From Spongiibacter nanhainus (GTDB lineage Bacteria; Pseudomonadota; Gammaproteobacteria; Pseudomonadales; Spongiibacteraceae): DNA of 64,000 nt. The notes beneath the pieces are model-generated. The model saw only the letters and a program-made list of their open reading frames with translations. It searched no databases and had not been told where the DNA came from. The translations under genes were made by a program, and so were the position numbers. Positions 1 through 35,413 of this stretch are shown here, piece by piece. Location: contig NZ_CP066167.1 in NCBI RefSeq assembly GCF_016132545.1, positions 3,532,001 to 3,596,000 of the forward strand, in the 5' to 3' direction. The first letter of the stretch is position 1; each line of letters starts with the position of its first letter.

Positions 1-1766
1 GCAGCCTGGGCGGCGCTATCCAGAACGGTGCGGTAGCGGTCATTGCTCGCCAACATATTCCGCCGGAACTGGTAGGGGTCGGCGGACTGCCGCCGCGCCA
101 GCTCATCGATAAAGCACTCTTGGGCAAAGACATCGGTGAACTTATTCACCGAGCGCATCCACAGCGCCGGCAGTGTCGGGTTAACTTTAAGGTGAAAATC
201 CACCAGCACATTGTCGATGTCGTAGGGCATGCCGGTATCGAAATCAGTGAGCTTATCGAAGTCCGGCAGATCGGCCTGGTGAATATGATCGATAAATTCT
301 TCGCCGTACTGGATGGCGGTCAGGTCCTGAGTGATGGCCCGGTGCTGCCAAGCGCTGATACCACCGCTTCGATCCACCGACGCCGCCACTCTCACCGCTG
401 AAGCGGGGCGGTAGAAACCGCCCTTCATGTCATCTTCCCGGGTCCACACCACCTTCACCGGTTGCTGCACTCGGCGGGCAACCTGGCAGGCGTCCTGGAC
501 AAAATCGGCAAAGGGATTACCCCGTCGGCCAAACGCGCCACCAGAAGGGAGGTTGTGGAAATTAATACGGCTGGGCGGCACACCCAACACAAAGGCGGCG
601 GCGGCTTTGTCCAGAGTGGGCGACTGGCTACCTGTCCAGATATCCGCCTGCTGGCCATCGTAATCCACCACCACGTTGAGGGGCTCCATTGCCGCGTGAG
701 CCATATGGGGGAAATGGAAGTCTGCGTCGACGTTGTCGGCCGCCAGAAATTTGGCAAAAGTGACCGAGCCATCCACCCGGGCGGGAATGCCTCGGACGTT
801 TAATTTGAGTTGGTACTCACTGCGCAGCGCGTTGGAATCGGTGCGGGCCCCGGCCAGCTCACTCCAGTGTGTTTCCAGCGCTCTGCGACCTTTTTCCGCT
901 GCCCAAAAGCTGTCCGCCACCACCGCAATACCAGCTGGAACGGTAAACACCTCCTGCACCCCTGACACCGCCAGTGCCGCATTGGCGTCGTAGTTCAGCG
1001 CTATGCCGTGAAAACGTGGCGGCCGGGCGATCACTGCTGTCAACATATTGGGCAGATCAACGTCCATGCCGTAGACCATACTGCCGTCGGTCTTGGCAGC
1101 GACATCCAGGCGCTGCCGATCGGTACCGATAATCTTAAACTGGGATGGCGACTTCAGTGACGGAGCCAGCGGTTCTGGCTGACTGGCGGCTTCGCCGGCC
1201 AGCTCGCCGTAGCTGGCATAGCGACCGCTGTCGTCGTGATAGACATAGCTGTTCTCTGTGCGCAGTGAGGACTTGCTCACTCCCCAGCGTTGGGCTGCTG
1301 CACCACAGAGCATATCCCGAATCGCAGCACCGGCCCGGCGCTGCTCGTCGAAGTAGCCTCGGGTGCAGGTACTGGCCACGGAGAACTGCACGGCCTTGAA
1401 AAAATAGGGGTTATTAAACGCCGCCGCGACCGGCGAGTGCTCGACACTCACCAACGACCAGTCGGCATCCAATTCTTCAGCCAGCATCATCGGCATTACC
1501 GTTAGGGCGCCCTGCCCCATCTCGGTAGCTCCCACGTAAACGGTAATGCGGTTGTCGGCACCGATCCGCATAAAATCTCCCAGTGCAGTGCCCTCAGCAC
1601 TGGATGTAGAGGAAACCTGCCCCGGGTCCGATAATTGCGCACGAGCATTAGTGCTACCGCCACCACCGCAGGCAATCAACACACCGCCACAGGCCAAAGT
1701 CGAAAAATGCAGGAAACGACGACGCGACAATCCGGCGTGCTTGGCGACAACTTTGTCTTGACTCAT
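1..1766 (-). CDS. Molybdopterin-binding subunit of an aldehyde/isoquinoline-type hydroxylase (IorB/OxiB-like), C-terminus off the window
   Basis: Catalytic large subunit of a xanthine-oxidase-family molybdenum hydroxylase, expected to oxidise an aldehyde or N-heterocycle with water as oxygen donor. Translation from the ATG at 1766 starts MSQDKVVAKHAGLSRRRFLH, giving a twin-arginine-like SRRRFL signal, so Tat export is likely. Further on it has VTVYVGATEMGQGALTV-type sequence typical of the family (GATEMGQG), the block GMDVDLPNMLTAVIARPP, and SGGAFGRRGNPFADF in the cofactor-binding half. The reading frame is open to base 1, so the C-terminus is missing. The 2Fe-2S subunit gene lies 2 bp upstream, so the two form an operon. 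In Streptomyces sp. K30 a pair of this type (oxiAB) lies next to the rubber oxygenase gene lcp, which fits the neighbours here. The substrate is unknown. Confidence 0.85.
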   Translation of the reverse strand, partial: MSQDKVVAKHAGLSRRRFLHFSTLACGGVLIACGGGGSTNARAQLSDPGQVSSTSSAEGTALGDFMRIGADNRITVYVGATEMGQGALTVMPMMLAEELDADWSLVSVEHSPVAAAFNNPYFFKAVQFSVASTCTRGYFDEQRRAGAAIRDMLCGAAAQRWGVSKSSLRTENSYVYHDDSGRYASYGELAGEAASQPEPLAPSLKSPSQFKIIGTDRQRLDVAAKTDGSMVYGMDVDLPNMLTAVIARPPRFHGIALNYDANAALAVSGVQEVFTVPAGIAVVADSFWAAEKGRRALETHWSELAGARTDSNALRSEYQLKLNVRGIPARVDGSVTFAKFLAADNVDADFHFPHMAHAAMEPLNVVVDYDGQQADIWTGSQSPTLDKAAAAFVLGVPPSRINFHNLPSGGAFGRRGNPFADFVQDACQVARRVQQPVKVVWTREDDMKGGFYRPASAVRVAASVDRSGGISAWQHRAITQDLTAIQYGEEFIDHIHQADLPDFDKLTDFDTGMPYDIDNVLVDFHLKVNPTLPALWMRSVNKFTDVFAQECFIDELARRQSADPYQFRRNMLASNDRYRTVLDSAAQA

Positions 1767-1768
1767 GA

Positions 1769-2224
1769 CTAGCCCTCTCCCGCCAGTTGGTGAATGGCCC
1801 GACGGATACGGGGATAAGTGCCGCAACGACAAATATTGCCGGACATGGCTTCATCGATATCCCGATCCGTAGGCGAGGCGTTATCTTTAAGTAGCGCGGT
1901 GGCCGCCATAATTTGCCCCGACTGGCAGTAACCGCACTGGGGCACGTTGATTTCCCGCCAGGCCTGCTGAACTTGAACCCCCACTGCGTCCTGAGCCATG
2001 GCCTCTATGGTGGTGACCTTCTGGCTACCCACCGCCGATACCGGCATCACACAGGACCGCACCGGCTGACCATCCACGTGCACCGTGCAGGCCCCACACA
2101 AGGCCTGTCCGCAGCCGTACTTACTGCCGGTCAACTTGAGGTCTTCCCGGAGCACCCACAACAGCGGCTTGTCGCCACTGACTTCCACGGTGTACTCCAT
2201 ACCGTTCACATCCAGCGTGTACAT
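1769..2224 (-). CDS. (2Fe-2S)-binding subunit of the molybdenum hydroxylase (IorA/OxiA-like)
   Basis: Small electron-transfer subunit carrying two [2Fe-2S] clusters that pass electrons from the molybdenum centre of the neighbouring large subunit. About 151 residues. The plant-type cluster ligands are visible as [15 protein letters not shown] plus a later Cys (RSC). The C-terminal cluster ligands are CGYCQSGQ and CRCGTY. I chose the ATG at 2224 (MYTLDVNG) because a TAAGGAT ribosome site lies just upstream and the family starts there; an in-frame ATG at 2266 would add 14 uncharacteristic residues. Its stop is 2 bp before the large-subunit start, implying co-translation. No signal peptide is visible, as is usual when the large subunit carries the Tat signal. 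Confidence 0.9.
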
Positions 2225-2266
2225 AGTTTTATCCTTAATACTTTGGCTTTGATGATCCCTAAACAA

Positions 2267-2290
2267 CTCGGGGCGCCTTAGCGCCCCGAG
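2267..2290 (-). terminator. Rho-independent terminator after the first RoxA-like gene
   Basis: CTCGGGGCGC and GCGCCCCGAG form a perfect 10-bp stem with a 4-base loop, followed on the minus strand by TTGTTT. It lies between the first RoxA-like gene and the Fe-S subunit gene, so it should separate their transcripts or attenuate read-through. Confidence 0.8.
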
Positions 2291-2307
2291 AATCGATGAG
2301 TTTTTGC

Positions 2308-4425
2308 TTACAGCGTTTTTAAGTATTCAATGATCGCCCGCCGCTCAACGTCGGTGAGCACATTGGTGAATTGGTGGCCCTCGTTACCCTGAGAGTAAAC
2401 GTTGGTGTTATAGACCTTGCGATTTTCAATCTGCTGGTCTGTCAGCGGGATGCTGTGCAACTCGTCGATGGGCAAGTTCCACAACAGGCCAACCTGCTTA
2501 TATACCTCGCCCAACAAATCCTGCAGTGTCGGCAATGATTCGTCGATGGGATTGCAGGCCAGCAAGGGCAGAGTCTGAGCAGCGTCCTGGACGCAATCCA
2601 GCTCGTCGTATTTCCAGCCCATTTTCTCCTGGTCGTAGGCACGCTCGAAGTTAGTGTCAAAACCCATTACTACGCGACCTTCCAGACCCTCCGGCGCGGG
2701 AGTGGACTTGCGCTTCCAGATATCGGGACGCTCACTCTCGTCGCCCAACAGTTGCCAGACATTGGGCACTGAACCGTTGTGCAGATAGGGCGCAGCCGCC
2801 CAAGTACCGTAAAGGGGCGGAGCCAATAGCACTGGATAATTGTTTTCGGTACTGGAGAAATCACCCAGGCCGCAATTCAGCATTGGCACGTTGGCTACCG
2901 CGGGAATCGCCGAACCATCCGGCTCCAACAGGCTGCGCTGCGCATCGGCATACACCGGGTCGCTCTGCACAATCTCGGCATTTACCAGGTTGGCGGCAAT
3001 ACCCTCCAAGCGAGGGTCCGACAGGAAGTTGGGATCCTTGGCAAAGTACTCAGAATGCACACCGTGACAGCTTGCGCAGGAGCCGTTACCGGGAGTTTCA
3101 GGCTCGGGAACTGGGTTGTTCAAGCTGGGTGCCCACAGGTTCTTGTTATGAAACAGGATCGCGCCCTGCTCGGCCAAGGCTGTATCAATATCACCGGGAT
3201 AGACTGGGGCCTTGAGAGACTCCGCCCAAATCTGGAACGCGTAGGAGGCTTCGTCCAGCCACTCCTCCATTTCGCTGACCTCACCCGTTTGCGCGAAGAA
3301 AAGTGGCGTGTAGGCAGCCATATCGATACGGGACGAATCCATGGGCAAAATCGCACCGTGGAATTTCTGTACCCGGTGCCCCATATTCCACCAGGGCGGG
3401 CTTTTGATAACCCCAATCGACTGACTGAAGATGATTTTGTCGTTGGTGTATTCCTCAAAAGTGCCGCCATTAAAACCGAGAAAACCAATCTGGAACTGGT
3501 CAATGGCCCCCACACCTCGCAGTGGCGATACCGTTAGCAGCCCGGAAAGGAGCCCGAATGCCGGGTTCTGAGCGGCTGCAGCAAAGTCCCGGAAGGCAAC
3601 AGTGAAGTCGCCGATCATCCCGGCGCCACCAAACACTTCATTGATACTGGATGAGTCGCTGGTGATCTGACCGTCGTGACAAAAGGAACACAATTTGACG
3701 CCAATCTGCCCGGTCCAGGTACCGTCAGGCTCTCGCAATTGCGTAAACGCAATCGGCAACTGCCCGGACCCGCCGTTGGTCTGATTGGGGTCTTCGCCGG
3801 GAAGCGGGTAGGGATTTCGATCTTCGCCCAAGGTTGTGCCATAACGCTGGGCTATCAATTCGTCATAGTTTTCCGGGCGCTGGGGGATAGACGGGCTCAA
3901 AACATAGCCGGTCCAGGTTTGCCACAGGTTGTTGTAGGCATCGGCCGGAATAGTGAACATCGAGCCCTCACCGAAATCGGCCAGCGTAGCCGGATCGGTA
4001 AAAGACGCAGAGACATGGGTGTCCTGACTAAACATGTGAGAGGTGCCCGGCTCGCCAAAGCCCTGAGCCACCAGCTTACCCTTCTCGTAGAGGTCGCGAT
4101 ACTGGCCACAGGTTTGCGGACGCTGAGCGTCGTTGGACTGGCAGCTTTGCCAGTCGATATTAAAGACGACATTGCGACCTTGATTGACGCCGTTTTGAAC
4201 CAGGGTTCTGGGATCCACCGGCAACTCCGCGGAATCCGACTTACCCTGGCAGTAGTCGTGCCAAACGTGACCACCGCGACTGCTGCTGAGCAGTTCACTC
4301 TGCGGTGTATTGGGCTCTGGAGTAGAGGGGGTATCACCTCCGCCATTATTAGACGACGAACTACTCGAGCCACCGCAGCCGGCGACAGCAACACTTATCG
4401 CTGCCAGCGCAATCCACTTCTTCAT
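2308..4425 (-). CDS. Dihaem c-type cytochrome lipoprotein, RoxA/RoxB-like (rubber oxygenase / CcP-MauG superfamily), copy 1
   Basis: Predicted secreted dihaem protein of about 705 residues. The start MKKWIALA is chosen because it begins a lipoprotein signal with lipobox VAGC followed by a Gly/Ser-rich linker; an upstream in-frame start would add 7 residues. Haem sites are CSFCH (C246-H250) and CASCH (C450-H454). The block [13 protein letters not shown] is the CcP/MauG-type motif near the second haem. GNEGHQFT about 25 residues from the C-terminus supplies a conserved His that could be a distal haem ligand. Length, two c haems and this motif order match RoxA of Xanthomonas sp. 35Y, which cleaves poly(cis-1,4-isoprene) with O2. 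Two paralogues lie at 4646-6706 and 14667-16778. A dihaem peroxidase role cannot be excluded. The substrate is not shown by sequence. Confidence 0.75.
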
Positions 4426-4598
4426 TGGGTACTCCCTGTTTAACATTTATATTCGACGGAGCGACGAAAAATCAAAGTTGCCAGTATTTTTATCGCAATG
4501 ACCGTCAAAGATATTTTCCTGCCATGCCAGCTGTGTCCGACCAGCGACACAATCCCAACTCTGTGAACGGAGTCTCATCATCACTGCCGTGCAATAGC

Positions 4599-4621: not shown

Positions 4622-4645
4622 CCTTGTCTGCCTATACCGCTTTGG

Positions 4646-6706
4646 CTACAGCGTCTTGAGGTACTCGATAATGGCGTAGCGCTCTTGGTCGGTTAACACC
4701 TCAGTAAACTCATGACCGCCATTGCCCTGGCTGTACATATGAGAGTTGTAGATTTTGCGGTTTTCCATATGCTCGTTGGTCACGATCGGCGGATAGTCGA
4801 GATTCCACGCTCCGGTCATGTTTCCGTAGGCCAGGTTCTTCATCAGCTGCGGGTACGGCGTGCGGTCAATGTTGAAGGGATCGCAGTTATAGAAGGGCGT
4901 TACCATCGGCGGATAGCTCTGACACTGAATCTTGTCGTACTTCCAACCCATCTTGTTTTCGTCGTAGGCGCGATCCAGGTCGGTATCAAAACCCATTACC
5001 ACGCTGTAAGCAGAACCCGGCGGCTTGGGCGCGGACTTACGACGCCAGATGGGGTGGCGATCCTGAGGCTTGAGCACTTCCCACACATTGGGCACTGAAC
5101 CGTTGTGGAAGTACGGCGCTGAAGCCCATACGCCATAGAGCGGCTGAGCCAGATAGCCGATTTCGCGGTCGCCGCGAATCCGCTCTTGACCCTGCGGGCC
5201 GCAATCAAAGCCGGGCTCTGCCCCTTTGGTAGGGGGATAGCCAAAGAAGTTATCGGCCCCCGCCTGCTGCATGCCTTCGGTATTAGTCAGTGCCCGGCGC
5301 TCGTCGGTACCGATGATATCCAAGGGGACGATATAGCCAGCCATACCCTCCAACATCGGCGTTTCCAGGTAGCTTGGATCATTGACGTAACGAGGCGAGT
5401 AAGCGCCGTGGCAGCTAGCGCAAGAGCCATTGCCTTCCGGCTCGCGAACCGAGTTATTGCGCTCGGGGGCCCACATATCCAACTCGTGGAACAGCACCGC
5501 GCCTTCTTCAGCCAGCGCGACATCCACATCCATTGGATACTTTGGTGCCTTCAAACTTTCTACCCAACGGTTGATTTGCGGACCGTGAGTACGCATCCAG
5601 TTCTGACCTTCTTCGCCCAGCGGGCCAGAGGAACCACCGAACAGACCAAAGAACGGCGCGTAAAACACCGAATCAACACGCGGCGCGTCCATGGGAAACA
5701 AACCATCGACAAACTTCAAAGGCCGGTGGCCCATGTTCCACCAGTTTGGTGAATCCATACTGCCGGTGGAGCCCGACATGGCAATCTGGAAGAAGCTATA
5801 AGGATCGGGAAAACCCTCCATTGGGAATAGGAAGGCAATGTTAACCGCGCTGGCGTTGTTGGTACCGCGAGTCTGGGTCAAATTAATAGGCGTGACTGCC
5901 GATGCCATATAACCCAGCGGCGCCATGTCGCGAAGGAAGAGATTTAGATCGGTCGCGCTTGAACCACCAAACAGGAAACCGAGGTCGTCGCCATCCGCTT
6001 TGGTACCAACCTCGCCACTGTGACAGCCGTTACAGGTAACACCGATTCGACCACTCCAACTTCCATCTGGGTTGCGAACTTGGGTGAACATCTCCGGTAG
6101 CTGACCACTGCCGCCATTGGTCTGATTGGGGTCTTCGCCAGGTAGCGGATAGGGGTTGCGCCCTTCCGACATACCGCTACCGTAGCGGTTGGTCACCAGC
6201 TCATCAAAATTGGCCGGGCGCGACCAATAGCCACCCCAGATGCGCCACAATTGGTTGTATTGCTCGGCAGAAAACGTGGAAATCCCGCCGGCAGACTCCG
6301 GGCCCATGTAATTGTTACCGGCAAACAAGGCAGCCACCTCCTCGCCACCGGTGTCCATCAAGCGCTCACCCGCGTAGTACTGCGCTCGCAAGCCACCGCA
6401 AGTTTCCGGATCACCAAATTCCTGCACCGCTTCCGGGTCGGCATGACACTCTGCCCAAAATGCGTTGAAATGAACCGCCTTGTTGTCGCTAATACCTGGC
6501 TGAACAAGGGTCCGGGGGTCTACCGGCACCGGCTCACTGTCAGGCTTATCGGCGCAGTAGTCCAACATCCACAAACCACCGTGGGTACTGCCCAATAAAG
6601 CATTGGGATCATCGTCGTACACAAAAGCATTGACTGGCGAAGACGCAGCCAGCGTCGCGGCAATGACAATTTCCTTTATCCCCACACCAGGGAATGGTTT
6701 AGACAT
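4646..6706 (-). CDS. Dihaem c-type cytochrome, RoxA/RoxB-like, copy 2
   Basis: About 686 residues, with a classical cleavable signal peptide (MSKPFPGVGIKEIVIAATLA, likely cut after PVNA) rather than the lipobox of its two paralogues. This copy should therefore be soluble in the periplasm or secreted. Haem motifs are CNGCH (C225-H229) and CASCH (C429-H433). It shares [58 protein letters not shown] and the C-terminal GNGGHEFTEVLT block with copies 1 and 3. The gene is tandem with copy 1 (220 bp apart, separate terminator), so the pair likely arose by duplication and diverged in localisation. The assignment to the RoxA family is by motif order and size. Confidence 0.75.
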   Translation of the reverse strand: MSKPFPGVGIKEIVIAATLAASSPVNAFVYDDDPNALLGSTHGGLWMLDYCADKPDSEPVPVDPRTLVQPGISDNKAVHFNAFWAECHADPEAVQEFGDPETCGGLRAQYYAGERLMDTGGEEVAALFAGNNYMGPESAGGISTFSAEQYNQLWRIWGGYWSRPANFDELVTNRYGSGMSEGRNPYPLPGEDPNQTNGGSGQLPEMFTQVRNPDGSWSGRIGVTCNGCHSGEVGTKADGDDLGFLFGGSSATDLNLFLRDMAPLGYMASAVTPINLTQTRGTNNASAVNIAFLFPMEGFPDPYSFFQIAMSGSTGSMDSPNWWNMGHRPLKFVDGLFPMDAPRVDSVFYAPFFGLFGGSSGPLGEEGQNWMRTHGPQINRWVESLKAPKYPMDVDVALAEEGAVLFHELDMWAPERNNSVREPEGNGSCASCHGAYSPRYVNDPSYLETPMLEGMAGYIVPLDIIGTDERRALTNTEGMQQAGADNFFGYPPTKGAEPGFDCGPQGQERIRGDREIGYLAQPLYGVWASAPYFHNGSVPNVWEVLKPQDRHPIWRRKSAPKPPGSAYSVVMGFDTDLDRAYDENKMGWKYDKIQCQSYPPMVTPFYNCDPFNIDRTPYPQLMKNLAYGNMTGAWNLDYPPIVTNEHMENRKIYNSHMYSQGNGGHEFTEVLTDQERYAIIEYLKTL

Positions 6707-7059: not shown

Positions 7060-9330
7060 CTAAAAGCGCAAACCGCCTTCCAGGTAAACCGAACGAGGTG
7101 GTTCGGCAGAGGCACGGTAGCCACCTACATCAAGGCCGGTACCGCCGCCAAAGCCCATCACCAGCTCATCAGTCAGATTCTTGCCAACCAATGACATCCA
7201 CCAGGTTTCGGCGTTGTCGAATATACGAACGCGAGCATTGTATTTGACGACGGCGTCCTCCAAGCCACGGGGATCAAGATCGCCAGAAATGTAGTGCTCG
7301 TCACGGAAGTTTACGTCGGCCGCCGCTTCCATAGTAAGCGTATCGGTAAGCGACCAGGTGGTGATTGCCGATAAGCTCGCGGTCCACTCAGGAGTTTGCT
7401 GGTTAACTTTGCCTTCAAAGTCACAGGTGCCGGTGTTGGGATCTTCATCAGGAGAGCCCGGATAACAGGGCCCCTGCTCATACTTGAGCCATTCAAAATC
7501 CAGGTAGCCCACAGAACCCGTCAACATCAGCCACTGCGTAGCCAGTAAACGACCATCCAGCTCAATACCTTGCGTCAGCGCCTGACCCGCATTGGTGACA
7601 CTAAAGCCGGCGACCCCGTCGAAGACGCTCACTTGCATGTCATCGTATTCCACCCGGTAGATCGCCAGGTTCAAGTCGGCCGCGCCATCCAACAGGCGCA
7701 TTTTCGCACCCAGCTCGAAGGAATCGGCCACTTCGTCATCAAACTCAAAGTTTGTGGCACCGCCCTGGGGCCCGCCATCGCCATTGTTGCCCTGGGCATC
7801 GTAGCCACCGGACTTGGCGCCACGGGTGTAGGAGGCGTAGGTCATCACACTGTCATTGAGATCCCACTGCACATTAACCAAGGGCAGGAGCAAGGCACTG
7901 TCGCGGTCGCCGCTCAGTTCGTGGGCGCCAACGTTGAGCTGACTAAGCAACAGCGCAGTGACCGGGTTGACGGGAATCTGTGTGCCACGCTCGTACAGAT
8001 TAAAGACCCGCTCGCCCTCTTTGCGCTCATACACATAGCGCAAGCCCAGGGTGCTGCGCCAGCTCTCGTTAAAGTTGAAGGTCATCTGAGTAAAGGCCGA
8101 CCAAGCCTGGCTCTCCAGCTCAAACTGACGGTCCAGATCAGCAGCGACCAACTGCTGGGTATTCAGAGCACAAACCCCGGTATCTTCAATCGCACCGGTA
8201 CGCACATTTAACGGCGCCTGCACATCGGAAGTAACTTCGTTTTCTTGATAAAAGACGCCACCGATATAGTCGATGAATTCACCACCAGGTGAGGCAAAAC
8301 GCAGCTCCTGGCTGAATTGGCTAAACTCTTCGACACCGTCAAACACCGACGTGTTGAAACTACTGGAATCAGGATCGAAGACCTCGTCGTTCTCAAAACC
8401 GGTGAAACCGGTGAAACCGGTGACTGAGGTGAGGGTACCTGACTCCATATGCACATCAACGTTCAATGTGCCGTTGTAAGAGTCCAGCTTAACTCGCTCA
8501 TCGGCCTCACTGTGGCGCACGTAGTCGCGGCGGGTATTCTCGCCGGAGCAACCCGTCAGCGCACTGGGATGGGTAACCTGCAGGGTTCTACCGATCTGCT
8601 CCAGCTCGGTTTGCTCCAGTTTCAAAGACGTGTCGATAAAGTCGGTGGGCGTCCAAGTCAGAATCAAGCGGCCCGACTTCTCTTCGGAACCACCGTCATC
8701 GCGCTTGAGCTCGGGGTTATAAATATAGCCTTCATCCTCCCGATAGCGCAGCGCCAAGCGGGCCCCAAAGGCGTCGCCGAGGGGACCGGACAACACCGTA
8801 TTTACCTCGCGATTTTCCAGCTCGATACCGTAAATACCGGAAACCATGCCTTCAAAGTAGTCGCCGGGCTTGGCAGAAATAACATTGATCGCACCAGCTA
8901 TGGCGTTTTTACCAAACAGGATGGACTGGGGACCGCGCAGCACTTCTACCCGCTCTACATCCATAAAGGCTGCCCGGGTTTGCTGGGCGCGCCCCAAGTG
9001 AATACCGTCAGAGAAAATCCCCACCGACATTTCGAAACCCAAGTTGGAGCCTGAGCCGATGCCGCGCATGTAGACGTTGGGAGCCAAACCACCCTTGACC
9101 ATTTTGAAGTTGGGGGTGTACTCGGATAGGTCAGACAAGTTTTCAATACCGGCCTGGTTCAGCTTCTCTGAAGACACAGCAGTAACAGAAACTGGTACAT
9201 CGCTCAGGGATTCGGCCCGCTTCTGGGCGGTCACGATCACCTCCTCCAGCTGACGCTTTGGCCCCTCTTGGGCAGAGGCCATGCTCGAAAGCAGCACCAT
9301 CGGTGGTACTGCGCGGCGTGACAAGGTCAT
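7060..9330 (-). CDS. TonB-dependent outer-membrane receptor 1
   Basis: Outer-membrane beta-barrel with an N-terminal plug, 756 residues, for TonB-driven uptake of a large or scarce ligand. Signal peptide MTLSRRAVPPMVLLSSMASA is followed by LEEVIVTAQKRAESLSDVPV, the usual start of the plug in receptors of marine and sphingomonad catabolic loci. VYMRGIGSGSN and VEVLRGPQSILFGKNAIAGA are plug motifs. The protein ends in Phe (GGLRF), as outer-membrane barrels do. GAGGGAATATC precedes the ATG, a good ribosome site. It lies directly upstream of the two RoxA-like genes on the same strand but has its own terminator. The ligand is unknown; a hydrophobic degradation product is an inference from the neighbours. 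Confidence 0.9.
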   Translation of the reverse strand: MTLSRRAVPPMVLLSSMASAQEGPKRQLEEVIVTAQKRAESLSDVPVSVTAVSSEKLNQAGIENLSDLSEYTPNFKMVKGGLAPNVYMRGIGSGSNLGFEMSVGIFSDGIHLGRAQQTRAAFMDVERVEVLRGPQSILFGKNAIAGAINVISAKPGDYFEGMVSGIYGIELENREVNTVLSGPLGDAFGARLALRYREDEGYIYNPELKRDDGGSEEKSGRLILTWTPTDFIDTSLKLEQTELEQIGRTLQVTHPSALTGCSGENTRRDYVRHSEADERVKLDSYNGTLNVDVHMESGTLTSVTGFTGFTGFENDEVFDPDSSSFNTSVFDGVEEFSQFSQELRFASPGGEFIDYIGGVFYQENEVTSDVQAPLNVRTGAIEDTGVCALNTQQLVAADLDRQFELESQAWSAFTQMTFNFNESWRSTLGLRYVYERKEGERVFNLYERGTQIPVNPVTALLLSQLNVGAHELSGDRDSALLLPLVNVQWDLNDSVMTYASYTRGAKSGGYDAQGNNGDGGPQGGATNFEFDDEVADSFELGAKMRLLDGAADLNLAIYRVEYDDMQVSVFDGVAGFSVTNAGQALTQGIELDGRLLATQWLMLTGSVGYLDFEWLKYEQGPCYPGSPDEDPNTGTCDFEGKVNQQTPEWTASLSAITTWSLTDTLTMEAAADVNFRDEHYISGDLDPRGLEDAVVKYNARVRIFDNAETWWMSLVGKNLTDELVMGFGGGTGLDVGGYRASAEPPRSVYLEGGLRF
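8396..8422. repeat. Three tandem copies of a 9-bp unit inside TonB receptor 1
   Basis: AAACCGGTG is repeated three times without error. In the receptor it encodes T-G-F repeats (TGFTGFTGF) in a predicted barrel strand or loop. It keeps the reading frame, so copy-number change would lengthen the protein rather than inactivate it. Confidence 0.85.
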
Positions 9331-11894: not shown

Positions 11895-12039
11895 CAGTGC
11901 GCCGGTCTCAGCGCAATACACCCGGCGCCTGTACTGGCGCTCAAGAACCATTGGAGTGCCCCCCAAACCAAACTGGGGGCCTATTTGCTCTAATCTATGG
12001 CGCCATTGATCGTCAGTGACCCCCTGGGAGGCCAAAACC

Positions 12040-12921
12040 ATGTCAGAGAATCCCACACCGCAAGTCGATATGCGTGACATCAGCTTTCTCAAGCCCGCCG
12101 GTGAGCCGGCCATGCTATCCCCTGATTCGGTGTCCTGGCAGGTGTTCAAAAACCCGGTGGCCATGTTTATCGGCGGGATTACCGCGACCCTATTAGAACT
12201 GGCAGAGCCCCGCATTCGCGCTGGCGTTTGGGATAATACTGAATTCAAGGATAAGCCTCTGCCGCGCCTGAAACGCACTGGGCTGGCGGCCATGGTGACG
12301 GTATACGGCGCTGAATCCACCGCCCGCCGACTGATTCACGGCGTCAATCAGCGCCACGCCAAAATTCGCGGCACCACCGAGGATGGCGTCCGCTACCACG
12401 CCTCCCAGCGGGAGTTAATGAACTGGGTGCACACCACGGCTTCATTCGGCTTTTTGGAGGCCTATCGTGCCTTTGTTCGGGAAGTCCCCCTCGCCGATCG
12501 GGACCGTTTCTACAGCGAAGCACTCAACAGCGCCTCGGTGTATGGCGCACCCGGCTGCCCCAGCAGCGAAATCGAATGCAAGGAGCACTTTGCTGCCATC
12601 AGCGACCAGCTACAGGCGACCGAAGTGAATCGAGAGTTTCTCGACATCATGCGCCGTACCCCCGCACTGCCCGGAATTATGCGCCCCTTTCAAGGGCTGT
12701 TTATCCGCGCCGCGGTATCGCTACTACCGCCGCCGCTGCTCACCCAGCTGGAGCTTGAGGATATGGGACGACTGCGCCCCTGGGAGCGCTGGCTGGTCAC
12801 TCTATTTGGCAAGCTCACAGATCGCATGGTGATCAAGAACTCCCCCGCCGTACAAAGCTGTCAGCGACTGGGTTTGCCAGCGGACTACCTCTATCAAAAA
12901 AGCCGCCGGCTCGGAACCTAG
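12040..12921 (+). CDS. DUF2236 (MpaB / latex-clearing-protein fold) oxygenase, copy 1
   Basis: About 293 residues. The family contains haem-b oxygenases, including the rubber oxygenase Lcp and fungal MpaB. The ATG at 12040 is chosen because GGGAGG sits about 9 nt upstream; an in-frame ATG at 12016 lacks such a site. Visible family signature: SVSWQVFKNPVAMFIGGITA, EPRIRAGVWDNT, then R76-L-K-R79-T80 and H106 26 residues later. This spacing resembles the R-x-x-K-T...H signature of Lcp, whose His is the haem axial ligand. No signal peptide is seen, so it is probably cytoplasmic, unlike exported Lcp. A paralogue lies at 26742-27686. Substrate unknown; an oxidised isoprenoid is the working inference. 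Confidence 0.8.
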   Translation: MSENPTPQVDMRDISFLKPAGEPAMLSPDSVSWQVFKNPVAMFIGGITATLLELAEPRIRAGVWDNTEFKDKPLPRLKRTGLAAMVTVYGAESTARRLIHGVNQRHAKIRGTTEDGVRYHASQRELMNWVHTTASFGFLEAYRAFVREVPLADRDRFYSEALNSASVYGAPGCPSSEIECKEHFAAISDQLQATEVNREFLDIMRRTPALPGIMRPFQGLFIRAAVSLLPPPLLTQLELEDMGRLRPWERWLVTLFGKLTDRMVIKNSPAVQSCQRLGLPADYLYQKSRRLGT

Positions 12922-16891: not shown

Positions 16892-19324
16892 ATGAGAATG
16901 CGATACGGACTTAAATACATCACTGCTGCGCTGCTAGTGGCAGGCGCAAGTGGTGCACTGGCCGCACCGGCCCTCGAGGAAGTGGTGGTGACGGCTCAAA
17001 AGCGGACCCAAAGTGCGCAGGATGTTCCTATCGCGGTGACGGCCCTATCTCAAGACGCCATGCGTGAAGCCGGCGTATTCGACGTCGCCGACCTCACCGA
17101 CGTCAACCCCAGTATCAGCTTTGACGCAGGCCAAAGCTCGCAAAACTCCAGCCTCAAAATCCGCGGTATCGGCACCGTGGGCAACGGCCGTACCTTTGAA
17201 GGTGCCGTGGGCGTCTTTATCGACGGCGTGTATCGTTCACGTTCAGGCATGGCCCTGCAGGATATGAATGATATCGGCTCACTGGAACTATTGCGCGGCC
17301 CTCAAGGCACGCTATTTGGTAAAAACACCGTAGCCGGCGCCCTCTCCCTCACCAGTAACAAACCCAACTTTGACGGCATCAACGGCAACGCCGAGGTGCT
17401 GGGCGGCAGCTACAACAAGGAGTTTGTCTCCGCTGCAGTTAATCTGCCAGTTTCAGATAATCACGCCCTGCGTTTTTCTGTGGTCAGTAACAAACAAGAC
17501 GGCTTCTATCGCAGTCGCCAATTCGATCGCACCTACAACCAAACTGACCGTCTGAGCGCCAAAGCCCAATGGCTGTGGGATGTCAGCGATACATTAAGCT
17601 CCTGGCTGGTTCTGGACTACTCTAAGTCCGATGCAGGTTGCTGTTGGGGTAGCGTACAGGTCGTTAGCGGTCCACTTACCGACGACATCGAGTATTACGC
17701 TAACCTGCGGGGACGGGACTTCTACAAACAGGGCCCGGCAGAAGACCAGCGTCTGACCAACAACAACCAGGACTCTGAAGAATTCCGCGAAGATATCGGC
17801 CTGGCCTGGACCCTGGACTGGGCTCTGGAATCCGGTGATCTAAAATCGGTCACTGGTATTCGTCGCTTTAAAGACGAACAGATTCGCGGTGACGCCGACT
17901 TTGGCCCGGCTCATATCATCGTGCTGTCTGAGCCTACCCAGATTGATTTTTTCTCCCAGGAAATTAACTTCTCTACCACCTGGGGTCGCACCGATATTGT
18001 CGCCGGCCTGTTTTACTCCGAAGAGGAATACACCAGTACCCGACAATTCATTGCCGACACCGACAGTAATAACTATGCCAGCTTCCGCACCACTCGGGCC
18101 ATTCCCGAATTGCTGGGCCTTAGCGTTGATACCGCCCCCCTGTGCCGTCCGCCGGGCATGACCCTGGGTTGCACCGCCACACTGAGCCTGATTGGTAATC
18201 TGGTGGGTATTCAGGCCTTCGACCTGTTCCCCTCCACCCCCGGCGACCGCATTACCGAAGATTATTACTACCAGGATGCCAGCAGTGCGGCGGCCTTTTT
18301 CCACACCCAAACCCACTTTGACAATGGCTTCACACTGGTTGCCGGTGCCCGCTACAGCCAGGACAAAAAAGACGGCGGCTACGACCAGGTATACTGGTAT
18401 AACTCGGAGTTAGCGCAGATCATTATGGCAACTGGATTGCTGGGCCCCACCCCCACTGGCAATCTGACCACACCACGGAACGCCTTTGATCTGTTCGGCA
18501 TCTACAACTCACCCAGCTTTAAGGACGACTACGAAAGCAGCGTTGTCACTACCACGGTATCAGGCACCTACGAGCTGGCCGATGACGTAATGACTTACCT
18601 GACTTTCTCCAAGGGCTATAAGTCCGGTGCAGTTAACCTGTTTCAGGAAGCCGTTAACCAGAACAACACCAGCTACGAGCCCGAATACGCCACCAGCTGG
18701 GAACTGGGTTTGAAGTCCCGTTACTGGGATGGCCGCGCACAAACCAACATTGCGCTGTTCGATACCATTTACGAAGATCTGCAAATTAACTTCTTCGATG
18801 GCTTCAACTTCTTTACCCGCAACACTGGTGAAGCAACCTCCCGGGGTATCGAAATTGAAAACACCGCACAAATTACCGACCGCCTGCGGGGCAGCTTGAG
18901 CATCACCTACCTCAAGGCGGAGTTTTCCGACCTGGGCAATGCGCCGGAAACTATTCGTCACCTCGACGGCCGGCAAACCCCTCGTGCACCAGACCTGTCT
19001 GGGGTCGCAGCGCTTAGCTACGAGCAGCCCTTTACGCCGTCACTCGCTGGCTACGGTCGCATTTCTGCTTCTTACAGCGGCGAGCACTGGGCCAGCCCGG
19101 ATACCCCCGACGAGCCCACCCAGGGACCCTACACCTTGTTGGACCTGACCCTGGGGTTGCGCTACTTCGGTGACAATGACTACGACCTGAGCTTTTTCTG
19201 CAAGAACTGCACAGACGTCACCTACCGCACCATCTACTTTGCGATGCCAGTGCAAGAGGGCTCGTTTAACGCCTACCTCAATGAACCCCGACAAGTGGGT
19301 CTTAGCCTGAAAGCACACTTCTAA
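16892..19324 (+). CDS. TonB-dependent outer-membrane receptor 3
   Basis: About 810 residues. Signal peptide cut after GALA, then APALEEVVVTAQKRTQSAQDVP opening the plug; LKIRGIGTVGNGRTFEGAVG and LELLRGPQGTLFGKNTVAGA are plug motifs, and the C-terminus is Phe (LSLKAHF). AGAGAGG precedes the start, with in-frame ATGs at 16892 and 16898. It lies between RoxA-like copy 3 and the P450, 23 bp from the latter, so receptor and P450 are probably co-transcribed. That supports uptake of a substrate the P450 or later enzymes work on. Confidence 0.9.
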   Translation: MRMRYGLKYITAALLVAGASGALAAPALEEVVVTAQKRTQSAQDVPIAVTALSQDAMREAGVFDVADLTDVNPSISFDAGQSSQNSSLKIRGIGTVGNGRTFEGAVGVFIDGVYRSRSGMALQDMNDIGSLELLRGPQGTLFGKNTVAGALSLTSNKPNFDGINGNAEVLGGSYNKEFVSAAVNLPVSDNHALRFSVVSNKQDGFYRSRQFDRTYNQTDRLSAKAQWLWDVSDTLSSWLVLDYSKSDAGCCWGSVQVVSGPLTDDIEYYANLRGRDFYKQGPAEDQRLTNNNQDSEEFREDIGLAWTLDWALESGDLKSVTGIRRFKDEQIRGDADFGPAHIIVLSEPTQIDFFSQEINFSTTWGRTDIVAGLFYSEEEYTSTRQFIADTDSNNYASFRTTRAIPELLGLSVDTAPLCRPPGMTLGCTATLSLIGNLVGIQAFDLFPSTPGDRITEDYYYQDASSAAAFFHTQTHFDNGFTLVAGARYSQDKKDGGYDQVYWYNSELAQIIMATGLLGPTPTGNLTTPRNAFDLFGIYNSPSFKDDYESSVVTTTVSGTYELADDVMTYLTFSKGYKSGAVNLFQEAVNQNNTSYEPEYATSWELGLKSRYWDGRAQTNIALFDTIYEDLQINFFDGFNFFTRNTGEATSRGIEIENTAQITDRLRGSLSITYLKAEFSDLGNAPETIRHLDGRQTPRAPDLSGVAALSYEQPFTPSLAGYGRISASYSGEHWASPDTPDEPTQGPYTLLDLTLGLRYFGDNDYDLSFFCKNCTDVTYRTIYFAMPVQEGSFNAYLNEPRQVGLSLKAHF

Positions 19325-22157: not shown

Positions 22158-25100
22158 ATGTCCAGCCAAGTTCCGCCCTCTCCATCACCCCGCCCAATCC
22201 ATCGCCTGCTCATCGCCAATCGCGGTGAAGTGGCTGTCCGCATTGCCCGCAGCGCTGTTGAAATGGACATTGAAACAGTCGCCGTTTTCAGTGAGGACGA
22301 CGCCAGCTGCGGGCACCTTCGGCACGCCAATATTAGTCACCCTTTGTCAGGGACGGGGGCGGCAGCCTACCTGGATATCCAGGCCCTTATCTCCGCGGCA
22401 AAACACCATCAATGCGATGCGGTACACCCTGGCTACGGCTTATTGAGCGAAAACCCGGCCCTCGCTGAGGCCTGCCTACAGGAAGGGCTCATCTTTGTCG
22501 GCCCGGACGCTGCCACGCTTAGCAAACTAGGGGACAAAAGCCGCGCCCGGCAATTGGCTCAACAATCGGGCCTCGCCATCAGCGCGGGAACCGAAGGAGC
22601 CACCTCGTTGGAGGACGCCACCGCGTTTTTCAACGCCCTCCCTGCCGGCAACTCAATGATGATCAAGGCCTTGGCCGGGGGCGGCGGCAAGGGTATGCGG
22701 GTAGTAAAGCGGGCCGACGAGCTCAATACCGCTTACCAGCGCTGTCAGAGCGAGGCACAGCGAGCCTTTGGTAGCGCTGAGGTGTACGTCGAGCGCTATA
22801 TCGCCAACGCCCGCCATATTGAGGTCCAAATCGCTGGCGATGGCGATCAGGTTGTGCATCTCGGGGAGCGGGAGTGCAGCCTGCAACGGCAACACCAAAA
22901 GTTGATGGAAATAGCCCCGAGCCCAAGTCTCGACAAACAGACCCGCCAAGCCATCCTCGACGCTGCCCTGCGCATCGCCCAGGCCTGCCACTATCGCGGC
23001 CTTGCGACGGTGGAGTTTTTGCTTGATCAGGACAGCGGCGAATTCGTATTTTTGGAGGTTAACCCCCGCCTTCAGGTGGAGCACACTGTCACTGAAGAGG
23101 TATACGGCATGGACTTGGTCGCGGTGCAATTGCAACTGGCGGCGGGCCGCTCCCTCGCCAACCTCAATCTACTGGGGAGTGCCTCATCCCCGTCACACTC
23201 GCCTAGAGGCTATGCCATACAGCTGCGGATCAATGCCGAGCAGCTCTCTTCTGAGGGGACGGCATTGCCCGCATCGGGGACCCTTACCGAGTTTCGGCCA
23301 CCGGGCGGCCCGGGAATACGGCTGGACACCCATGCCTACGCCGGTTACACCCCTAACGGGGCCTTCGACTCTTTGCTGGCAAAACTAGTGGTCAGCTCCC
23401 CTACGGCGGACTTCGCCGCTGTGATCCGCAAGGCCCGGCGTGCCGTGGAGGAGTTTTGCATTAGCGGCATCGCCACCAATCTGAGCTTTTTCAGCAAACT
23501 CCTGGCCAGAGAGGATGTAACGCGCAACACCGTGAACACCCGCTATGTAGAGCTTCACGCCGCCGAACTGTGCGATACCGGCAGCGGCAATAGCGCCCCT
23601 GACTCCGGTGAGATTTGCGCTCCGCTTAATGGCATCGTTAACAGCGTCACCGTCAGTGACGGCGAGCGCGTGGCTCAAGGTCAAGAGCTGGCAACTATCG
23701 AAGCCATGAAACTGGAGCACGCCATCACCGCGCCGAGCCATGGCGTGATTACCTCAGTTTGCGGTCGTGCAGGTGAGCCGGTTACACAGGGCCAGGCGCT
23801 CTTCACCTTCGAAACTGGGGAGGCCGACACAACACAGGCAGCCACGGAGTCCCATCAGGACCTGGATGCGGTGCGCCCAGACCTGGCACTGCTGCAGGCA
23901 CGACTCGCCGAAACCGAGGACTCAGCGCGGCCTCGTGCGGTGGAAAAGCGGCGCAGCCGGGGACAACGCACCGCCCGGGAAAACATCGCCGACCTCTGTG
24001 ACCCGGGCAGTTTCACCGAGTACGGCCAACTGACCGTTGCCTATCTCCACGCCCGCCACAGCGACGAAACCCTACGGGAAACCACCCCAGCCGATGGCTT
24101 TGTGATGGGCATGGCGACAATCAACGCCAGCCTGGTGGGCGAAAGCGCCGCTCAGGTTGTGGTGGGCAGTTACGACGCCACTGTGATGGCAGGCACCCAA
24201 GGCCACAAGAATCATCAGAAAACCGATCGGCTATTTGACCTGGCACGTGAACACCGCCTGCCGCTGGTACTGTTTGCAGAGGGTGGCGGCGGCCGGCCCC
24301 GGGAAGATCCCGTCACCATCGCCGCTCTGCAAAACGAGTCCTTTCGCAAACTGGCTGAATTGAGTGGCCACGTTCCTGTAGTGGGCATCGTGTCCGGTCG
24401 CTGTTTTGCCGGCAACGCCGCTCTGCTCGGTATGGCGGATGTCATTATCGCCACCGACAACAGCAATATCGGCATGGCTGGGCCAGCGCTGATCGAGGCC
24501 GGCGGACTCGGGCAATTTGCCCCAGAGGACATTGGCCCCATCGGCACTCAGCGGCGCAATGGAGTAGTGGATATCAGCGTAAAGGATGAGGCCGAGGCCG
24601 TGGCGGTCGGTAAAGCCTACCTGTCCTATTTCCAGGGTCCAGTCCAGCACTGGCAAGCCGACGATCCACGCCGCTTACGCCATGTCATTCCAGAAAACCG
24701 GCTGCGGGCCTACGATGTTCGCCGGGTAATCCATACCCTGGCAGATAGCGACTCGGTATTGGAATTGCGCCGGGACTTTGGTCAAGCCTACGTCACCGCA
24801 CTGATACGAATCGAGGGTCGACCGATGGGGGTGATAGCCAATAATCCGCTGCACAATGCCGGCGCCATCGACGCCGACAGCGCTGACAAAGCGTCGCGGT
24901 TTATGCGGCTCTGTGATGCCCACCGCCTGCCCATCCTGTCGCTGATCGATACCCCGGGGATCATGGTGGGGCCGGAGGCCGAGGAAAGCGCACTGGTGCG
25001 CCACGCCGCTCGCCTGTTTGTCACCGCCGCGTCCATCACCGTGCCGATATTTGCCATTGTGCTGCGCAAAGCCTACGGCCTTGGCGCCATGGCCGCCGCC

Positions 25101-25421
25101 GGCGGCGATTTCCACACACCCTTTTTTACCGTCGCCTGGCCCACCGGGGAGCTGGGTGGAATGGGCTTGGAAGGTGGGGTCAGACTGGCCTATAAAAAAG
25201 AACTTGAGGCCATCACCGATCCCGAGGAGCGGCAGCGTTTCTTTGAGGAACGGGTCGCCTCTCGCTACCGAAAGGGTCAGGCCACCTATATCGCCAGTTA
25301 CTTTGAGCTGGATGCCGTCATCGACCCCGCCGATTCTCGCCAATGGATACGGCGTGGCCTGGATGCCACCGCCAATTCACTGGCAAAGAGCAGTAAAGGC
25401 CGCTTTATCGACACCTGGTAG
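22158..25421 (+). CDS. Single-chain biotin-dependent acyl-CoA carboxylase (BC-BCCP-CT fusion)
   Basis: 1087 residues combining all activities. Residues about 15-460 are biotin carboxylase (RLLIANRGEVAVRIARSA, ALAGGGGKGMRVV ATP-grasp loop, EVNPRLQVEHTVTEEV). Residues about 485-555 are biotin carboxyl carrier, with the biotin lysine K518 in EAMKLEH. From about 590 to the end is a fused carboxyltransferase (FAEGGGGRPRED, GRCFAGNAALLG, SLIDTPGIMVGPEAE). Single-chain enzymes of this layout include a long-chain acyl-CoA carboxylase of Mycobacterium. In isoprenoid catabolism (atu/liu) geranyl- and methylcrotonyl-CoA are carboxylated by two-subunit relatives, so a branched acyl-CoA substrate is an attractive but unproven inference. 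It precedes a LysR regulator and the second DUF2236 gene. Confidence 0.9.
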   Translation: MSSQVPPSPSPRPIHRLLIANRGEVAVRIARSAVEMDIETVAVFSEDDASCGHLRHANISHPLSGTGAAAYLDIQALISAAKHHQCDAVHPGYGLLSENPALAEACLQEGLIFVGPDAATLSKLGDKSRARQLAQQSGLAISAGTEGATSLEDATAFFNALPAGNSMMIKALAGGGGKGMRVVKRADELNTAYQRCQSEAQRAFGSAEVYVERYIANARHIEVQIAGDGDQVVHLGERECSLQRQHQKLMEIAPSPSLDKQTRQAILDAALRIAQACHYRGLATVEFLLDQDSGEFVFLEVNPRLQVEHTVTEEVYGMDLVAVQLQLAAGRSLANLNLLGSASSPSHSPRGYAIQLRINAEQLSSEGTALPASGTLTEFRPPGGPGIRLDTHAYAGYTPNGAFDSLLAKLVVSSPTADFAAVIRKARRAVEEFCISGIATNLSFFSKLLAREDVTRNTVNTRYVELHAAELCDTGSGNSAPDSGEICAPLNGIVNSVTVSDGERVAQGQELATIEAMKLEHAITAPSHGVITSVCGRAGEPVTQGQALFTFETGEADTTQAATESHQDLDAVRPDLALLQARLAETEDSARPRAVEKRRSRGQRTARENIADLCDPGSFTEYGQLTVAYLHARHSDETLRETTPADGFVMGMATINASLVGESAAQVVVGSYDATVMAGTQGHKNHQKTDRLFDLAREHRLPLVLFAEGGGGRPREDPVTIAALQNESFRKLAELSGHVPVVGIVSGRCFAGNAALLGMADVIIATDNSNIGMAGPALIEAGGLGQFAPEDIGPIGTQRRNGVVDISVKDEAEAVAVGKAYLSYFQGPVQHWQADDPRRLRHVIPENRLRAYDVRRVIHTLADSDSVLELRRDFGQAYVTALIRIEGRPMGVIANNPLHNAGAIDADSADKASRFMRLCDAHRLPILSLIDTPGIMVGPEAEESALVRHAARLFVTAASITVPIFAIVLRKAYGLGAMAAAGGDFHTPFFTVAWPTGELGGMGLEGGVRLAYKKELEAITDPEERQRFFEERVASRYRKGQATYIASYFELDAVIDPADSRQWIRRGLDATANSLAKSSKGRFIDTW

Positions 25422-25594
25422 TGGACCAAGCTAGCGTGTTGCGCTCCAGGTCAGCAGGCCCAGGGGCGACCAAGTGTGAGGCGACCGGATATGAGGGGGT
25501 AAGGCATGGGATTCAATACATCCAAAATCAACCATTGGGTTACACTGTGGCAAAACAAGCCCGCCCTTCAACAGCCTGAATATATGTAGCCGAT

Positions 25595-26524: not shown

Positions 26525-26741
26525 CCTTCGGCGCGCCCCGCCCATTGAAATTTTGTATAGCCTTTATCCAGAGCACAAATAATAAAATCTTAAGCCTCTG
26601 TTTTTAATATGTTTTTTACAGCAACACCCGCCAAAAAACAACAAGCAACGACTGGGCAACGGCAGAGGATATTGCTAGGATTTTAGCCAAGCAAAATGCT
26701 GGCAACGCCGCCAGCAAGACCGGATTTAAAGAGGCACTGCC

Positions 26742-27686
26742 ATGACCGAACGCACATCTTACATGGGCTGGAAGCTCGACTTTACCCAGCCCCCTGGAGA
26801 GCCCGCCTACACCGAACCCGATTCGATTACCTGGCAGATATTTAAAAACCCCATCGCCCGGGTGATCGGCGGTGTTACAGCGGTGCTCCTGGAGTTTGCC
26901 GATCCGCGCATCCGCAGCGGCGTATGGGATCACTCTATCTATAAAGTGGACCCTGTTGGCCGTGCTGAACGCACAGGTTATGCCGCTTCAATTGGTACAT
27001 ACGGCCCTGCCAGTGCAGCGCGCAAAGTGATCGGCGGTGTCAATCGGATGCACGCCAAAGTCGAGGGCACCACGCCAGACGGACAGCCCTACAAGGCGCT
27101 CGACCAGGAGCTCCTGGATTGGGTCGCGGCCACCGCCGGCTTCGGCTTTTTCAAAGCCTACGACCGTTTTGTGTCGCCCTTCAGCAAAGACGAGGAGCTG
27201 CAATACTTTAGCGAGGGTGGCGAAATACCCAAGTTGTACGGCGTCAAACGCAGCCCCTCATCCATCGCCGACTTCGAAGATATGATGATGGAGCTGGAAC
27301 CGGGCTTTGAGCCACATCCAATTAATGAGGAATTTCTCCAGGTGCTTAAAGCCTCCGGCAAAGAGCGCAAAGTCCCCGCCTTTTTGCTTCACCACCTGGT
27401 ATGCGCGTCGGTAGACATCCTGCCGCCCATCGTGCGGGAGCGCTTAAATCTGGGTAAGGAATACGATCTCACTCCGATGGGGCGCATTATCGTAAAAATA
27501 GTTGCCAAACTGGCAGATCGGATCCCCAACACCAACAGCCCGGCTGCACAAGCCTCCGAGCGCCTGGGACTACCCCGCAAGTTCTTGTGGATGAGCAAGA
27601 AAAAGCAGGCCAAGCTAATGGCCGAGCTCCGAGCCAAAGGCGGCCTCCAGAGCCCCACTCCCCCAGCTGCCGAAACCACCAGCTAA
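26742..27686 (+). CDS. DUF2236 (MpaB / latex-clearing-protein fold) oxygenase, copy 2
   Basis: 314 residues, clear paralogue of the protein at 12040-12921: SITWQIFKNPIARVIGGVTA, DPRIRSGVWDHS, R74-A-E-R77-T78 and H104 at the same 26-residue spacing. Towards the C-terminus both share the pattern NSPA.Q...RLGLP. The His is the probable haem-b ligand by analogy with Lcp. No signal peptide. GAGG lies 8 nt upstream of the ATG. The C-terminal tail is Lys-rich and then Pro/Thr-rich and absent from copy 1. Likely a cytoplasmic oxygenase for a lipid or isoprenoid intermediate; substrate unknown. Confidence 0.8.
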   Translation: MTERTSYMGWKLDFTQPPGEPAYTEPDSITWQIFKNPIARVIGGVTAVLLEFADPRIRSGVWDHSIYKVDPVGRAERTGYAASIGTYGPASAARKVIGGVNRMHAKVEGTTPDGQPYKALDQELLDWVAATAGFGFFKAYDRFVSPFSKDEELQYFSEGGEIPKLYGVKRSPSSIADFEDMMMELEPGFEPHPINEEFLQVLKASGKERKVPAFLLHHLVCASVDILPPIVRERLNLGKEYDLTPMGRIIVKIVAKLADRIPNTNSPAAQASERLGLPRKFLWMSKKKQAKLMAELRAKGGLQSPTPPAAETTS

Positions 27687-35408: not shown

Positions 35409-35413
35409 TAACA

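Follow-up and report, generated by a model that had tools for sequence, protein, structure and literature searches.

A candidate polyisoprenoid-catabolic locus with a predicted secreted RoxB orthologue and two DUF2236 proteins in Spongiibacter nanhainus

Introduction

Which proteins take over in a Gram-negative bacterium once a polyisoprenoid has been cut outside the cell? In the accessible text of PMC5979037 the outer cut by Gram-negative rubber degraders is described as well studied; uptake and the inner steps come mostly from genome inference. The question is raised anew by a 64,000-nt stretch of the Spongiibacter nanhainus genome (C1:3532001-3596000, hereafter the window; genome of 4.08 Mb on a single contig), in which an initial annotation had seen a 28-kb locus with three RoxA-like dihaem cytochromes, two Lcp-fold (DUF2236) oxygenases and an aldehyde-oxidising molybdenum hydroxylase pair, read together as a possible complete route from outside cleavage to acyl-CoA carboxylation. 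Pfam and NCBIfam profiles confirmed the named families at their positions (Table 1). We estimate the probability at roughly 60% that this is a polyisoprenoid-catabolic locus in which a RoxB enzyme acts outside the cell and has a newly recognised partner, a DUF2236 oxygenase, inside it; the substrate, the direction of the route and each of its reactions are proposed from orthology, linkage, co-occurrence and a predicted fold.

Results

Nine Rox proteins and one RoxB orthologue

Nine RoxA-like proteins of the host exceed the PF21419 cut-off, and one further weak match stays below it. Seven of the nine genes lie within 35 kb (C1:3513800-3548778), with Rox1 to Rox4 in the 18.2 kb preceding the window and Rox5 to Rox7 inside it; Rox8 and Rox9 are located at C1:1.75 Mb. 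The clustering of families proposed for the 28 kb thus holds, but the Rox locus begins about 20 kb before the window, with four more Rox genes, and the window gives a truncated view of it. At 1.75 Mb, Rox8 and Rox9 flank a TetR regulator beside a resistance-nodulation-division pump (L017:10385-16057).

All nine proteins were scored on NCBIfam models with cut-offs of 900 bits for RoxB (NF050034) and RoxC, 1000 for RoxA and 150 for di-haem peroxidase. The RoxB cut-off was passed by Rox6 (1110 bits), Rox7 (1015), Rox1 (942), Rox8 (941) and Rox2 (941), the RoxC cut-off by Rox9 (1218 bits). Rox4 (827), Rox5 (807) and Rox3 (792 bits on RoxB) pass neither model, Rox5 reaching 561 bits on RoxC. The kinship of the window's trio with RoxA/RoxB is beyond chance, at 807 to 1110 bits on RoxB, and on the di-haem peroxidase model the three reach at most 109 bits, under its cut-off. 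For Rox6 the RoxB score is ten times the peroxidase score (106 bits).

According to the part of PMC10837239 consulted, the residues at the W302 and F317 sites are diagnostic, being Trp/Phe in RoxA, Val/Phe in RoxB and Phe/Ala in RoxC. In our alignment the nine host paralogues show six pair types: Val/Phe in Rox6, Phe/Phe in Rox7, Gln/Phe in Rox1 and Rox2, Val/Leu in Rox3, His/Ala in Rox4, Rox5 and Rox8, and Phe/Ala in Rox9. None carries Trp at the W302 site, and Phe317 is retained in four (Rox1, Rox2, Rox6, Rox7) and missing from five. Since Rox8 passes the RoxB model despite Ala at F317, that cut-off alone looks too lax. Rox6, with a length of 686 aa, has two CxxCH motifs, and its Val/Phe pair and MauG motif PYxHNGSVP agree with Table 1 of PMC10837239. 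Its N-terminus looks by eye like a Sec signal, and it is the only host Rox without a lipobox pattern, which occurs in the other eight; Rox1 to Rox3 combine the lipobox with a third, N-terminal CxxCH.

For phylogeny, 143 Rox matches were reduced to 123 by removal of repeat-genome loci, rows shorter than 600 aa and identical rows, and aligned with eight RoxA references, one of them without an open reading frame (ORF), to give 130 rows. The tree holds 129 rows (122 matches and seven RoxA references, RoxB35Y and PA2077/PA2078 being absent) and was built by a quick method supported only by the Shimodaira-Hasegawa-like approximate likelihood ratio test (SH-aLRT). Rox6 falls inside a 32-row RoxB clade together with RoxB of Steroidobacteraceae and Myxococcaceae (SH-aLRT 100). 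The other host proteins lie in separate subclades outside it, Rox7 despite its 1015 bits, and the subclades of Rox1/2, Rox3 and Rox4/5/8 are distinct from that of Rox9. Altogether 15 distinct W302/F317 pairs occur among the 130 rows, of which 76 keep Phe317. Val/Leu, Phe/Trp, Trp/Ile and Tyr/Ala each form one branch with support 100; the Phe/Ala rows require two changes on the tree, so this pair alone is no marker of one group.

By profile, active-site residues and phylogeny Rox6 is a RoxB orthologue, predicted to be secreted. The view of the three window proteins as rubber-type enzymes survives for Rox6, but the trio is not equivalent, and Rox5, which lacks Phe317, is probably no rubber oxygenase.

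Rox carriers in the group are not new, as Spongiibacter tropicus and Zhongshania sp. ZX-21 already appear in a table of PMC10731047; a literature search found no published account of such a Rox cluster in the Spongiibacter/Zhongshania group. In S. pelagi we counted ten RoxB-model matches in nine ORFs within 57 kb. One of these ORFs, of about 1810-1820 aa with four CxxCH (L113:14893-20000 and L114:1-355), was excluded from the tree at its 1820-aa length. It comprises a Rox protein at residues 781-1820 and an extra N-terminal third-haem region at about 410-535; we rejected two Rox copies in favour of one Rox with a duplicate N-terminal haem region.

The DUF2236 proteins form a clade apart from Lcp

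Both DUF2236 proteins of the window carry the DUF2236 domain and keep an Arg/Thr/His haem triad, R84/T88/H114 of DUF2236 oxygenase 1 corresponding to R164/T168/H198 of Lcp as given in the available parts of PMC6311187 and PMC5522427. The former source, in the portion consulted, equates DUF2236 with Lcp. Neither protein, nor an 11-row profile, matched the Lcp structures 5o1l/5o1m at E 1, as against 455 bits on 5o1l for a true Lcp, that of Solimonas fluminis, used as control. With 301-314 aa they are shorter than the 5o1l chain (407 aa), and by eye both lack the signal-like N-terminus that the S. fluminis Lcp shows. In a second tree, for which two long-branch rows were removed and four added, they belong to a 15-row clade (support 99/99) apart from the lone, long-branched Lcp row. 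Lcp identity was rejected on the missing sequence match, the missing signal-like N-terminus and the different clade, and a phmmer match of DUF2236 oxygenase 1 to 4w5x (E 0.87) was treated as chance.

An AlphaFold model of DUF2236 oxygenase 1 from an 8-row alignment reached a predicted local distance difference test score of 85.5 and a predicted template modelling (TM) score of 0.85. In Foldseek its best match was trans-anethole oxygenase 8s1j (TM 0.52, probability 1.00, E 0.047), and Lcp followed with TM 0.45-0.47 and E 0.08-0.12. The Lcp-fold assignment stands for domain and triad and falls for sequence and clade, with a predicted fold that is related at weak E-values. Because relatives of the fold cut C=C bonds, the modelled protein may do likewise. 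Nro1 of Gordonia, a 323-aa b-haem protein of the MpaB family, cleaves nitrile rubber according to the accessible text of PMC12724181.

Recurrence of the DUF2236 clade with Rox in distant bacteria

In 6 of 74 named loci a member of the clade lies no more than 10 kb from a Rox gene, namely those of Povalibacter, Peristeroidobacter, Steroidobacter agaridevorans, a Salinisphaerales metagenome-assembled genome (MAG), Paraliomyxa and a Polyangia MAG. The pairing noted in the initial annotation is thus met again in distant lineages. In four of the six the clade member is the only PF09995 gene found. The three Steroidobacteraceae share a set of acyl-CoA ligase, DUF2236, TonB receptor, molybdenum large and small subunits and RoxB. 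As these six were found beside Rox and seeded the DUF2236 model, the link is partly circular in them, and a fair test has to come from genomes that did not enter the model.

Such a test is offered by the class of Nannocystis, which we take to be Polyangia in GTDB. RoxB exceeds its cut-off in 9 of 192 genomes and the DUF2236 clade (E 1e-80) is present in the same nine, of which two (G068, G071) seeded the model and seven are outside it. The two scans of the 192 genomes were taken as one set, the genomes listed being in agreement, and the nominal p of 1e-15 is not used as a probability. Among 57 relatives of the host, DUF2236 members above 400 bits occur in 3 of the 12 that carry Rox and in none of the 45 that do not, two of the latter (G040, G055) giving matches of 211 and 143 bits. 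A draw of 369 genomes from the host's class gave scores above 400 bits for the host alone; seven further genomes reach 143-212 bits, with proteins outside the clade. Ten of 36 named Rox genomes hold the clade, four of them outside the model. These wide scans scored the best 3, 6, 12 or 5 candidates per genome and may have missed genes; one that scored the best 3 returned only three of the nine Rox genes known in the host.

In Microbulbifer and genome G006 the DUF2236 genes stand beside TonB receptors on contigs other than those with Rox. The G006 counterpart of DUF2236 oxygenase 2 (72%) is divergent to a counterpart of TonB receptor 1 (87%).

As the clade keeps turning up with RoxB in distant bacteria, it probably works in the same pathway. 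Enzymes of the RoxB, RoxC and DUF2236 kinds have been described before; a literature search that left out most subscription journals found, by title or abstract, no link of DUF2236 and Rox in one gene neighbourhood, and the word DUF2236 is absent from PMC5979037 (strain 35Y).

Molybdenum enzyme

The molybdenum pair proved to be of the aldehyde-oxidising kind that had been proposed, the nearest solved structure of its large subunit being 8gy3_C, an aldehyde dehydrogenase large subunit. A molybdenum cofactor large subunit, a 2Fe-2S subunit and a candidate cytochrome c are all present, the last being a small adjoining protein with two CxxCH and Pfam matches below cut-offs. The longest ORF for the large subunit has SRRRFL, presumably a Tat-like (twin-arginine translocation) motif, close to its N-terminus. 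The enzyme resembles an aldehyde dehydrogenase of the periplasmic type. Rox6, Rox5, the 2Fe-2S subunit, the large subunit and the small two-CxxCH protein form a run on one strand, spaced by 199 bp, then 41 bp, then overlapping genes. In the three Steroidobacteraceae the small subunit encoded next to RoxB matches the 2Fe-2S subunit at 51-56%.

Receptors, cytochrome P450 and other neighbours

Recurrence of the neighbours was assessed in 94 Rox-bearing loci by tblastn, with E 1e-15 and coverage of half the query as thresholds; the set of loci includes duplicates of one genome and one host locus and has flanks of mostly 10 kb only. TonB receptor 1 has an 83% counterpart in the Rox cluster of S. 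pelagi, TonB receptor 2 has 71-74% counterparts near Rox in S. pelagi and the Salinisphaerales MAG, and TonB receptor 3 has 62-76% counterparts in the Rox loci of three same-genus genomes. TonB receptor 3 lies 113 bp behind Rox7, and the P450 a further 23 bp behind the receptor. The best solved relative of the P450 is P450-TERP (P450terp, 1cpt, 334 bits). It matched in 13 of the 94 loci, 12 at 66-78% (some of them genome duplicates), which places counterparts in the Rox loci of seven same-genus genomes; the thirteenth match, at 26%, was taken as unrelated. Beyond the P450 (20592) no gene but DUF2236 gene 2 has a counterpart in other Rox loci.

ArsP, the carboxylase, LysR and a 403-aa ORF had no match in the 94 loci and were dropped as parts of the system; the proposed route to acyl-CoA carboxylation thus gains no support from the comparison. 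A 71-aa ORF was rejected as DUF4266, having no Pfam match. Genes for an acyl-CoA ligase and two acyl-CoA dehydrogenases lie upstream, as does a nitronate-monooxygenase-like gene.

Table 1. Features of the locus. Positions are those of the window unless given on contig C1.
Feature	Position	Strand	Evidence and remarks
Mo large subunit, 3' part	1..1832	-	PF02738/PF20256; 8gy3_C E 5e-47; window edge cuts ORF
Mo large subunit, whole ORF	C1:3531532-3533832	-	766 aa
[2Fe-2S] small subunit, same Mo enzyme	1769..2266	-	PF01799, PF00111
Rox5 dihaem lipoprotein (predicted), His/Ala subclade	2308..4446	-	PF21419; NF050034 807 bits; lipobox VAGC
Rox6, predicted secreted RoxB orthologue	4646..6706	-	PF21419; NF050034 1110 bits; V/F; no lipobox
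TonB-dependent receptor 1	7060..9330	-	PF00593, PF07715
TonB-dependent receptor 2	9439..11829	-	PF00593, PF07715
DUF2236 oxygenase 1 (putative), Rox-associated clade	12016..12921	+	MPAB_Lcp_cat PF09995 E 1.5e-48
Rox7 dihaem lipoprotein (predicted), Phe/Phe, haem motif CSICH	14667..16778	+	PF21419; NF050034 1015 bits; lipobox LSGC
TonB-dependent receptor 3	16892..19324	+	PF00593, PF07715
Cytochrome P450	19348..20592	+	PF00067
Single-chain acyl-CoA carboxylase	22158..25421	+	left out of proposed system
DUF2236 oxygenase 2 (putative), Rox-associated clade	26742..27686	+	PF09995 E 2.5e-42

Between Rox3 and Rox4 lies a module of ApbE, DUF3570 and thioredoxin-like genes (L015:9744-12702, C1:3521744-3524702), with homologues in 11, 17 and 16 of the 94 Rox loci, genome duplicates counted. 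DUF3570 is described as a flavinylation substrate of ApbE in the accessible part of PMC8238504, and the module may be an electron source for certain Rox subgroups. Further observations are a two-component system flanked by two pyrroloquinoline quinone-dependent alcohol dehydrogenases (window 30774-37216) and a tandem pair of BcsG-like genes behind a BcsE gene (L014:179-5352).

Discussion

We propose the following route. Rox6, a RoxB orthologue predicted to be secreted, would use O2 to cut inner C=C bonds and release oligo-isoprenoids with aldehyde and ketone ends. The predicted lipid-anchored paralogues that keep Phe317 (Rox1, Rox2, Rox7) might cut or trim further on the envelope, and the Ala and Leu types (Rox3, Rox4, Rox5, Rox8, Rox9) might carry out other oxidations or electron transfer. 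Linkage suggests import of the oligomers by the TonB receptors, and the presumably periplasmic molybdenum/2Fe-2S/cytochrome c aldehyde dehydrogenase, assigned by family, could turn aldehyde ends into acids. Inside the cell the two DUF2236 proteins, as putative haem enzymes, would cut the C=C bonds still left in the oligo-isoprenoid acids, the P450 would hydroxylate ends, and the upstream acyl-CoA ligase and acyl-CoA dehydrogenases would lead to beta-oxidation. More tentatively, and with less confidence than we place in the locus itself, we suggest for Gram-negative polyisoprene degradation in general that RoxB acts outside and that a cytoplasmic, RoxB-tracking DUF2236 enzyme then cuts the imported oligo-isoprenoids, as the missing inner step.

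Several findings weigh against a polyisoprenoid route of this kind. No RoxA was found in the host, the best of the nine Rox proteins scoring 496 bits against the cut-off of 1000, and most host Rox proteins lie outside the RoxB clade. Two RoxC-type proteins of other bacteria had no rubber activity, according to unpublished results cited in the accessible text of PMC10837239. The DUF2236 clade was not found in 9 of 12 Rox-bearing relatives, in the Rox-bearing genomes G099 and G112 of the host's class, or in 26 of the 36 named Rox genomes. In G006 and S. pelagi the DUF2236 and Rox genes are on different contigs, and in loci L089, L107 and L109 the PF09995 genes near Rox belong to other clades, the respective genomes holding 10 to 15 PF09995 genes each. 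The nine-genome match may reflect few lineages. The Foldseek E-values are weak, the best being 0.047 and none reaching 0.001. In the Steroidobacteraceae the molybdenum genes are arranged differently from those of the host, and their large subunit shows just 32-33% identity, for which reason the linkage of molybdenum and Rox genes may be independent there.

In the main rival reading the substrate is not polyisoprene but another unsaturated lipid (a fatty acid, squalene, a carotenoid or a sterol side chain). The Rox proteins would then be fatty-acid or terpenoid dioxygenases like Pseudomonas 10S-DOX/FadCcp, and the DUF2236 proteins would act on the same lipid. It ranks first among the rivals because RoxA also groups with fatty-acid dioxygenases, namely PA2077/PA2078, which oxygenate fatty acids according to the portion of PMC4496055 consulted. 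The absence of Phe317 from five of nine host Rox proteins fits such a substrate, as does the suggestion of unsaturated fatty acids for RoxC in the available text of PMC10837239, and the relatives of the P450 include hydroxylases of terpenes, steroids and methyl-branched lipids. Rox6 speaks for the other side, lying within the RoxB clade, carrying the active-site pair of RoxB and scoring 1110 bits on RoxB against 106 on di-haem peroxidase, in a comparison whose tree does not contain PA2077/PA2078. On balance we consider another lipid rather unlikely. We regard as distinctly improbable a chance, loose island of tandem-duplicated Rox genes beside unrelated DUF2236, molybdenum, P450 and carboxylase genes, for although none of the compared Rox loci holds a match to the carboxylase, ArsP, LysR or the 403-aa ORF and DUF2236 counterparts lie off the Rox contigs in G006 and S. 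pelagi, DUF2236-Rox linkage returns in Steroidobacteraceae, the Salinisphaerales MAG, two myxobacteria and the host, RoxB and DUF2236 share nine genomes, and the P450 recurs in Rox loci of seven same-genus genomes.

For Gram-negative rubber degraders, a DUF2236 clade following RoxB across classes provides a concrete candidate for an inner step. The nine host paralogues are moreover a natural panel for asking which residues let a Rox protein cut rubber, a matter left open by the inactive RoxC proteins in the accessible text of PMC10837239.

Compared with known systems, Rox6 shares with RoxB of S. cummioxidans 35Y and R. gummiphilus LatA the two CxxCH, the MauG motif, the Val/Phe pair, the look of a secreted protein and the clade. 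It differs in its haem-1 motif (CNGCH, not CHACH), in the lack of a RoxA partner found in the host genome and in being accompanied by eight further paralogues, each with a lipobox. RoxC-type proteins are represented by Rox9, which passes their model, and are resembled by Rox1 to Rox3 in the third N-terminal CxxCH and lipobox, whereas Rox1/2, Rox3 and Rox4/5/8 occupy subclades other than that of Rox9. With the 8gy3-type periplasmic molybdenum aldehyde dehydrogenase, and presumably with OxiAB of Streptomyces K30, the locus shares the molybdenum large subunit, the 2Fe-2S subunit and the adjacent small two-CxxCH protein. Lcp has the Arg/Thr/His triad and a related predicted fold in common with the DUF2236 proteins, which are shorter, without signal-like N-terminus or sequence match, and in another clade. 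In fold the DUF2236 model comes closest to trans-anethole oxygenase 8s1j, with 14% identity in the fold alignment, and MpaB alkene cleavers such as Nro1 are likened by family. Unlike either of these, the DUF2236 clade of the window tracks RoxB.

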